This document shows positions 31,653-34,289 of a stretch of DNA of 34,996 bases, piece after piece. The stretch lies in NCBI GenBank assembly GCA_013152715.1, contig JAADFU010000034.1, forward strand, positions 1-34,996. The letters run 5' to 3'. Numbering within the stretch: the first letter of the stretch is position 1; each line of letters starts with the position of its first letter. This DNA comes from Calditrichota bacterium. GTDB taxonomy: Bacteria > Zhuqueibacterota > Zhuqueibacteria > Thermofontimicrobiales > Thermofontimicrobiaceae. The position numbers were made by a program, and so were the translations under genes. The notes beneath the pieces are model-generated. The model saw only the letters and a list, made by a program, of their open reading frames with translations. It was not told the DNA's origin and searched no databases.

Positions 31653-32948
31653 TCAGTCAATCAGCGTTAGCAAAAAATCAGCGATCTTCTCGGAACTACC
31701 GACATTCTTCATTACTTGCATTTTCGCGCGCTCACCGTTCTGACGCGTGAAACTGTCATCCTGAAACATCCGAACGAGCGCCCGCGACATTTCCGCGCCG
31801 TCGCGGACAATTTGCGCGCTGCCACTTTCCACGAGGTCAATTGCCTCGGCGGAATTTCTCATTTTCGGGCCCATCAGCACCGGAATGCCATACACGGCCG
31901 GCTCCAGAACGTTGTGAATTTTCGCGTAAAAACTACCGCCGACAAAAGCGACTTTCCCCAACGAATAAATATTTGCCAGCACGCCGATCATGTCGACGAT
32001 GAGACAGCGCGCGCCTTCAATGTTTTCCCCCGACTGTAATTCTGACAAAAGCGCGCACCCAATGTCCATCTCCCGACATGCGTGGCGTATTTCTTCGATT
32101 CTCTCTTCGCGCGGCTCATGGGGAGCAATAATCAGAAACGCATTTTCTATTTCACCTGCTAAATCTTGAAATGATGGGATCAACACTTCCTCGTCATCAT
32201 GCCAGGTGCTGCCGGCGACAAAAATTTGCTTATTTTGAAAAATTTGATGGTTTGAAAATTGCAAAAATTTCTCGCCAAAACTGGAGCGATCAAAAACCTG
32301 GTCATATTTCGTATCGCCGAAAACGTGAACTTTCTCATCGTTCCCCAGCAGCCGGCGAAAATGATTCTTTTCCTTTTGCGAAACCGCCAATATCGCCGAC
32401 AATTGATTAAATAGCGCCCGAAACAAATTTTTAATTACCGGTAAATAGCGCACAGATTTTTCCGGCAGCGTAGCATCGATCAGCACAGCGGGAATTTTGT
32501 TGCGCCGCAGCCGCCAGACAAAATTCGGCCAAACGTCATGACGAACAATCACCGCCGCTTGGGGAGCAACCGTTTCAACAAACTTTTTCATCACTGTATA
32601 GCCGTCAATCGGCAGATAGCACAAAGCATCCACCGGAAATTGTTCTTCGATATTGTCAAAACCAGACGGTGAAAAAACACTCACCACGATACACAGCTCC
32701 GGCTTTTTCTGTTTCAATTTTTCCATCACCGGCTTTGCCTGGAGAAACTCCCCAAAAGATGAGACATGAAACAAAATCGTCTTTTGTTCTGCCGGGCATT
32801 GGGACAACTTCTGTCGCAAACGAGAAAAATTTCCCAACCTTCCGGCGAGCCCGCGTCTTATTTTTCGATTGAAGAGACTGAAAAAGAAAACAAAAATGAG
32901 TGATATGGGAATGAAAAAAAAATCGTACAGAATTAACAGCATCCGCAT
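31653..32948 (-). CDS. kdtA: 3-deoxy-D-manno-octulosonic acid (Kdo) transferase
   Basis: Adds Kdo from CMP-Kdo to lipid A precursor at the inner face of the inner membrane. It is 431 residues, GT-B fold. A hydrophobic N-terminal anchor covers about 3-26, then RRGLAGRLGNF. E67 of HVSSFGEF matches the catalytic glutamate position of the family SxGE motif. The C-terminal half has FGDTKYDQV, FVAGSTWHDDEE, FVGGSFYAKIHNVLEPAVYG and PVLMGPKMRNSAEA. The usual GGHN sequence is here KIHN, a mild variation. GGAG lies eight bases before the ATG. mtnA follows by 35 bases; a 210-base gap without a gene separates it from the upstream LytR_C-domain gene. No other Kdo gene is present. Confidence 0.94.
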   Translation of the reverse strand: MRMLLILYDFFFIPISLIFVFFFSLFNRKIRRGLAGRLGNFSRLRQKLSQCPAEQKTILFHVSSFGEFLQAKPVMEKLKQKKPELCIVVSVFSPSGFDNIEEQFPVDALCYLPIDGYTVMKKFVETVAPQAAVIVRHDVWPNFVWRLRRNKIPAVLIDATLPEKSVRYLPVIKNLFRALFNQLSAILAVSQKEKNHFRRLLGNDEKVHVFGDTKYDQVFDRSSFGEKFLQFSNHQIFQNKQIFVAGSTWHDDEEVLIPSFQDLAGEIENAFLIIAPHEPREERIEEIRHACREMDIGCALLSELQSGENIEGARCLIVDMIGVLANIYSLGKVAFVGGSFYAKIHNVLEPAVYGIPVLMGPKMRNSAEAIDLVESGSAQIVRDGAEMSRALVRMFQDDSFTRQNGERAKMQVMKNVGSSEKIADFLLTLID

Positions 32949-33158: not shown

Positions 33159-33692
33159 TTAACGAAAAGGCGACAACTGAAGATAATCGCTCCCGATTAA
33201 AATAGTCGCTGCAACTTCTCCTTCTCTTTCCGGACTAATCTGGTGGATGACATATTGTTTTTTGACGCCTATCAATCCGGCGACATATTTGGCGTTCGCT
33301 TTATTCCTGTCTTTGCGGTCAATTACCAGCGTGTGGCTAATTTTGTGTATTTTGTTATTGACTAAAAAATTATCATAAAAAACGACGTCCACTTTGCGCT
33401 CTCTCAAATAATCGGTCAGTTCCCGAGCAACATTAGGCGCACCGCAGGCATTGAAAATTTCAATTTTGACCGTCCGACCAACTAAATTGTCTTTCTTGAG
33501 ACTGTGGAAAAAAGTCAGTTGATTGCGGCTATCGGCGAGATTTTGCTGCCAACTGTGCAGCAACCAGGAAATAAGAAAAATAATATTGATGCCGGCGAGG
33601 ATAATAATCAACATCAATAAGATTGTATCTTTGAGTCTGGCTTTGATATCCTTATCGTTTTTTTTGCCTTTTTTTTTCTTTTCCTTCGCGAT
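33159..33692 (-). CDS. Membrane-anchored LytR_C-domain protein with likely AUC start
   Basis: The C-terminal part (about residues 83-165: VKIEIFNACGAPNVARELTD, then VVFYDNF and HTLVIDRKD) is a LytR_C domain, normally the tail of LytR-CpsA-Psr cell-wall enzymes. Here it stands alone after one membrane helix (about 24-45) with no catalytic LCP domain. The only ATG/GTG/TTG starts in frame (33617 TTG, 33614 ATG) fall inside the helix and have no ribosome site. Upstream, GGAGGAG stands seven bases before an ATC at 33692. Reading from there gives MAKEKKKKGKK, a lysine-rich cytoplasmic leader that properly orients the helix, and 177 residues in total. AUC is a rare but known initiation codon; a sequencing error at an ATG is the alternative. 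The function is unknown, possibly a wall- or polymer-binding module. Confidence 0.78.
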   Translation of the reverse strand: MAKEKKKKGKKNDKDIKARLKDTILLMLIIILAGINIIFLISWLLHSWQQNLADSRNQLTFFHSLKKDNLVGRTVKIEIFNACGAPNVARELTDYLRERKVDVVFYDNFLVNNKIHKISHTLVIDRKDRNKANAKYVAGLIGVKKQYVIHQISPEREGEVAATILIGSDYLQLSPFR

Positions 33693-33707
33693 TTTGCCGC
33701 TCCTCCG
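33690..33707 (-). promoter_or_regulatory. Strong ribosome site before an ATC codon
   Basis: CGGAGGAGCGGCAAA followed by ATC on the minus strand. It is the only good ribosome site for the LytR_C gene, and no standard start codon follows it in that frame until inside the membrane helix. Confidence 0.6.
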
Positions 33708-33730: not shown

Positions 33731-33763
33731 GAAAAAAATAACCGAGGAAACAACTCGGTTATT
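33731..33763 (-). terminator. Terminator after the small exported protein gene
   Basis: AATAACCGAG (33737-33746) pairs perfectly with CTCGGTTATT (33754-33763) around a seven-base loop, followed on the minus strand by a T-run. It lies between the 33792 stop and the LytR_C ribosome site, leaving almost no room for a promoter, so the LytR_C gene may depend on readthrough. Confidence 0.7.
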
Positions 33764-33791: not shown

Positions 33792-34289
33792 TTATTTATC
33801 CTCGTCTTCTCTGAATGATTGAAACCGCGGAAAGCCCATGCGGTCGTAATAATAGGGGTTGTAATAGTTGGGCATCGAGCTGTATTGGAAGCTCATTTCC
33901 AGATTTTTACTCGGTTTGTATTTCAATTCCGCACCTGACAGAAAAAATCCGTTTTTGAATGCCGGCGAATCTTTGCTGAAAGAATTGTACGGAAACTGCT
34001 GAATGCCCCACTGAACCGTCAACATCAGCGGCGATGCAATCTGATAACGCAAAGTGTTCAAATAGACGCTTTGTGCCACGCCCCTGCCTCCGATGGAAAA
34101 ATAGCCCATGGAAAAACTGTGCGACATACTTAACCGCGACGGATCCAGGATACTCAAGCCCACCTGATTATTGGCTGGCTTGACCAATTCCTCGCGAATC
34201 GAGACCGGTTGATCCTGACGTTTCAACTGAGCGAACAGAACAATCGGAAGCAGCAGCGCAATGACCACAATTATCATTATTTTCTTCAT
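33792..34289 (-). CDS. Small exported protein, function unknown
   Basis: 165 residues. Signal peptide MKKIMIIVVIALLLPIVLFA, with cleavage after it at AQ. The mature part has beta-like strands with alternating aromatic residues (MSHSFSMGYFSIGG, GAELKYKPSKNLEMSFQYSS) and a tyrosine-rich stretch (MPNYYNPYYYDRMG), then an acidic end (REDEDK). It looks like a small periplasmic or outer-membrane protein with part of a beta sheet. I do not recognise a family. The frame extends seven codons up, but AAGGAGG stands eight bases before the ATG at 34289. Preceded by a promoter-like sequence and closed by a terminator, so a single-gene unit. Confidence 0.85.
   Translation of the reverse strand: MKKIMIIVVIALLLPIVLFAQLKRQDQPVSIREELVKPANNQVGLSILDPSRLSMSHSFSMGYFSIGGRGVAQSVYLNTLRYQIASPLMLTVQWGIQQFPYNSFSKDSPAFKNGFFLSGAELKYKPSKNLEMSFQYSSMPNYYNPYYYDRMGFPRFQSFREDEDK

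Follow-up and report, generated by a model that had tools for sequence, protein, structure and literature searches.

The question raised by this locus is where translation of a membrane protein gene begins when its Shine-Dalgarno sequence (SD) is followed by ATC. The window is the whole stretch of DNA analyzed, 34,996 nt from a Calditrichota bacterium (genome G000), and positions refer to it unless another contig is named. The main reading, to which we give a probability of about 0.85, is that a LytR_C gene in one KSB1/Calditrichota-type clade would be translated from an AUH codon (AUC, AUU or AUA; here AUC) after a strong SD, and that this start would be throttled and sensitive to IF3.

The reading frame and its proposed start site

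The minus strand around the start reads ATTCC GGAGGAG CGGCAAA ATC GCG AAG GAA AAG, with the SD GGAGGAG at 33700..33706 and, after a 7-nt spacer, the ATC codon at 33690..33692. The coding sequence that starts at ATC (33159..33692, minus strand) comprises 177 codons and a TAA stop at 33161-33159, and its homology to the G004 orthologue extends over the whole length (query residues 1-177). The translated 177-aa product begins with IAKEKKKKGKKNDKDIKARLKD, and this Lys-rich leader is followed by a single hydrophobic helix at approximately residues 24-46 (33555..33623, minus strand; hydropathy maximum 2.99). The LytR_C domain (PF13399) was found at residues 74-170 (33183..33473, minus strand; E = 1.9e-8), and the profile score of 35.5 bits lies above the curated cut-off of 22.2, which places the product in this family. 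From its sequence, the product is predicted to cross the membrane once and to carry a LytR_C domain. By the positive-inside rule, a single pass through the inner membrane is expected, with the LytR_C domain on the extracytoplasmic side.

Upstream, an in-frame TAA at 33759..33761 (minus strand) terminates the frame, and no ATG, GTG, TTG or CTG occurs in frame from this stop to the helix. The first in-frame standard starts are the consecutive codons TTG-ATG-TTG at 33609..33617 (minus strand), which lie within the helix and have no SD. The initial annotation had described this arrangement, namely GGAGGAG seven bases before ATC, a Lys-rich leader and membrane helix read from ATC, standard starts only inside the helix without a ribosome site, and a LytR_C domain, and each of these elements was recovered. 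Folding around the start showed nothing unusual in structure (z = -0.98 and 0.00).

The similarity between the G000 and G004 proteins starts exactly at the AUH codon (IAKEKKKKGKK and IAKDKKKKAKK, respectively). In the ten codons after it, the two genes differ at 0, 1 and 7 sites at codon positions 1, 2 and 3, and this pattern therefore indicates that the leader is coding directly after the AUH codon.

Start codons of the orthologues

Relatives were sought in 99 genomes and found in 75, with the best matches in the same GTDB family. The orthologue loci in the genome contigs were found by an alignment-based scan, whereas a scan with the single protein gave no match. Orthology was judged by gene order, and the same neighbors are present in G002-G006, G009 and G011. 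The start regions read GGGGAGAGCGGGC-ATC in G002, GGGAGGATTTTACC-ATT in G003 and GGAGGATTACAAA-ATA in G004. In these three genomes the AUH codon lies 6-8 nt past GGAG(G), at the homologous alignment column. The loci come from separate MAG records of independent projects (SpSt-1156, KSB1 4572_119 and KSB1 BS750m-G10). The SDs of the four AUH genomes (G000, G002, G003 and G004) are all strong (GGAGGAG, GGGGAG, GGGAGG and GGAGG), and none of these four genomes has an ATG, GTG or TTG, in whatever frame, that the SD could serve. In G002, an ATG without an SD lies in frame 9 codons past the ATC and could be used as a start. No strong site for initiation inside the helix was found in any orthologue.

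In the alignment of the four AUH genomes, the codon begins with AT throughout, and its third base varies (C, C, T and A) without ever being G. The lack of G in four sequences has a chance of 0.75^4 = 0.32 and could by itself be accidental, so the argument for an AUH start is based on the invariant AT, the SD and ATG as the usual start, rather than on the third base alone. Neither the LytR_C gene nor waaA is present in G001, the genome nearest to G000 (73% complete and of the same genus), which is therefore uninformative.

A tree was built from WaaA, MtnA and LytR_C together. The four AUH genomes form one clade (support 99/98), with G005/G006 as the sister pair and G009/G011 outside, and the sister genomes and outgroups all start with ATG. 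The AUH start is thus kept among species within a single clade as ATC, ATC, ATT and ATA, and the lineages are separated by branches of 0.5-0.8 changes per site, with none back to ATG. The simplest history suggested by these sequences is a single change to AUH followed by retention, and the AUH start appears to be a maintained feature rather than a sequencing error. The codon has switched between AUC, AUU and AUA but never to AUG, which provides a natural test that "not AUG" is conserved. The AUC start proposed in the initial annotation is supported by this distribution of codons, and we infer from the sequence that initiation occurs at the AUC codon.

The combination of a membrane helix and a LytR_C domain was found in homologues across many phyla, and an ATG, GTG or TTG is available before the helix in 92 of 97 LytR_C homologues. 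In WOR-3/Stahlbacteria, the LytR_C genes L109, L121 and L137 (~1880-1905) have no ATG, GTG or TTG shortly before the helix and carry AAAGGGG-TTGCG-ATC. An independent AUC start is possible in these three genes, judging from the site; its conservation is not independent evidence because the 3' end of the gene before it extends over this site.

Use of AUH starts in infC and their rarity

In all ten genomes of the order with an infC match, the start of infC is an ATT or ATC preceded by GGAGG or GAGG (in G000, infC is at C194:25144-25347), and therefore an AUH-type start is in use in this group. The canonical anti-SD 16S end GGATCACCTCCTTT was found in the family members G003, G004 and G005 with a shorter sequence pattern, after a long pattern had given no match; the pattern search of G000 gave no match to this end.

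The rarity of such starts was surveyed roughly, with a simple codon score, in 615 gene-like frames over 0.97 Mb of G000 (~23% of the genome). A strong SD with ATH and no usable standard start was convincing only for the LytR_C gene and infC. Together with the Ile codon at the same column behind an SD in three orthologues, this rarity indicates that the arrangement at the LytR_C gene is not accidental. The remaining ATH candidates in this survey had a standard start nearby or were chance-like. An ATH match in G004 (L044, ~13307, minus strand) was also rejected as an AUH start, because a UGA in a UxxC-like motif accounts for it. The protein in question is thioredoxin-fold-like and has a TGA in frame, in ASW-TGA-GVCRKE, at the position of the expected Cys. 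This protein is a candidate selenoprotein, and an apparent relative, judged from its N-terminus, was seen in G005 (L045, 447-1319).

Neighboring genes and the upstream hairpin

The gene order shared with the orthologues is small exported protein, LytR_C, waaA and mtnA. The downstream gene (31653..32948, minus strand) has the same neighbor position in G002-G006, G009 and G011, and from sequence knowledge we take it to be waaA-like (KDO transferase), waaA being an LPS-core gene. The upstream gene (33792..34289, minus strand) encodes a small exported protein (MKKIMIIVVIALLLP...) and has an ordinary ATG after AAGGAGG.

A hairpin with a T tail that resembles an intrinsic terminator (33737..33763, minus strand; AATAACCGAG..CTCGGTTATT) separates the upstream gene from the SD and lies ~30 nt 5' of the latter. 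G002, G003 and G005 have similar hairpins just 5' of their orthologues. Hairpins of this kind were also observed upstream of many KSB1/Calditrichota homologues (L018, L016, L024, L085 and L092), and in some homologues the T tail nearly reaches the SD, leaving scant room for a promoter. Attenuation or readthrough at the hairpin before the LytR_C gene is possible.

Alternative explanations

The initial annotation had named a base error in ATG as the main alternative to an AUC start. One base change (ATGGCG to ATCGCG) would be enough for this, and the G000 genome is a draft of 211 contigs, but the three orthologues carry ATC, ATT and ATA in other assemblies, and four independent errors with differing letters at one codon are not credible. 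The orthologue codons exclude base error as a general explanation and leave it a negligible probability for the codon in question. Translation might also begin elsewhere in the frame, at TTG/ATG/TTG inside the helix or, in G002, at the ATG further on, with the upstream match being fortuitous. These are the earliest in-frame standard codons, but they lack an SD in all four genomes, and beginning there would cut the helix and remove the positive leader. The leader is itself under coding constraint according to the differences by codon position, and in homologues elsewhere the leaders start 5' of the helix, so we regard an internal start as very unlikely. A start in another frame combined with a frameshift in the A-rich leader, or readthrough from the upstream gene, is still less probable: runs of A are a known slippery sequence type and do occur in the leader, but no standard start lies near the SD in any frame of the four genomes, in-frame conservation already holds for the segment preceding the A run, and the terminator-like hairpin and stops stand between the two genes.

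The AUH start may instead be real but passive, a slightly harmful relic of drift without regulatory meaning, in which case the strong SD may merely compensate for the AUH codon. Against this, AUH was retained in four lineages separated by the long branches described above, and the third base moved among C, T and A without ATG appearing again in any of them. We therefore consider a passive relic unlikely and favor an AUH start that limits expression.

Proposed mechanism and comparison with known systems

In the proposed mechanism, the strong SD would select the AUH codon on the mRNA, and the initiator tRNA (CAU anticodon) would pair with codon positions 1-2, leaving position 3 mismatched. IF3 would discriminate against the AUH codon, and the start would throttle output to a low level. 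A low supply of IF3 relative to ribosomes would then be expected to increase output, in parallel with that of infC. By analogy, the AUH codon most likely acts as a throttle on protein output, and the LytR_C start is probably sensitive to IF3; throttling and IF3 dependence are proposed because infC in the same genomes has the same start type and because cases have been published elsewhere. More tentatively, an envelope gene may share with infC an IF3-sensing start throughout the clade, which would tie envelope work to the IF3:ribosome ratio, that is, to growth state.

To our knowledge, few bacterial genes besides infC are known to have an AUH start conserved across species. On sequence evidence, the LytR_C gene is a putative member of this small set, to which it would add a different gene family from an uncultured phylum. 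Gene callers restricted to ATG/GTG/TTG would misplace such a start or truncate the protein.

Previous studies showed that elevated IF3 inhibits non-canonical starts (PMC2268962) and that the IF3 gene, with its AUU start, is under the control of IF3 itself (PMC9410913). Like infC (AUU/AUC/AUA), the LytR_C gene has an AUH codon after a strong SD, in the same genomes. However, infC is self-controlling, whereas the LytR_C gene encodes an envelope protein, so an effect of IF3 on it would be outside regulation. The pcnB gene of E. coli has an AUU start (Binns and Masters 2002, cited in PMC13009471 and PMC9410913); as described in the citing papers, it resembles the LytR_C gene in that it encodes no initiation factor and its translation is limited by the AUU start, but the gene, phylum and codon are different.

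In staphylococci, the non-canonical starts of cvfC1 (AUU) and ccpN (AUA) are conserved and preceded by strong SDs; in poor medium, three reporters of non-canonical starts were expressed at ~10% of the AUG level, and the ccpN reporter reached up to 30% in rich medium (PMC13009471). The likeness of ccpN and cvfC1 in staphylococci/Bacillus to the LytR_C gene lies in a species-conserved AUH codon with a strong, extended SD (PMC13009471). Their starts were demonstrated by Ribo-Ret and reporters, whereas the LytR_C start is predicted here from sequence, and the LytR_C codon varies among AUC, AUU and AUA within the clade, unlike those of ccpN and cvfC1. Other LytR_C proteins share the PF13399 domain, but most of these homologues have a standard start before the helix, unlike the gene described here.
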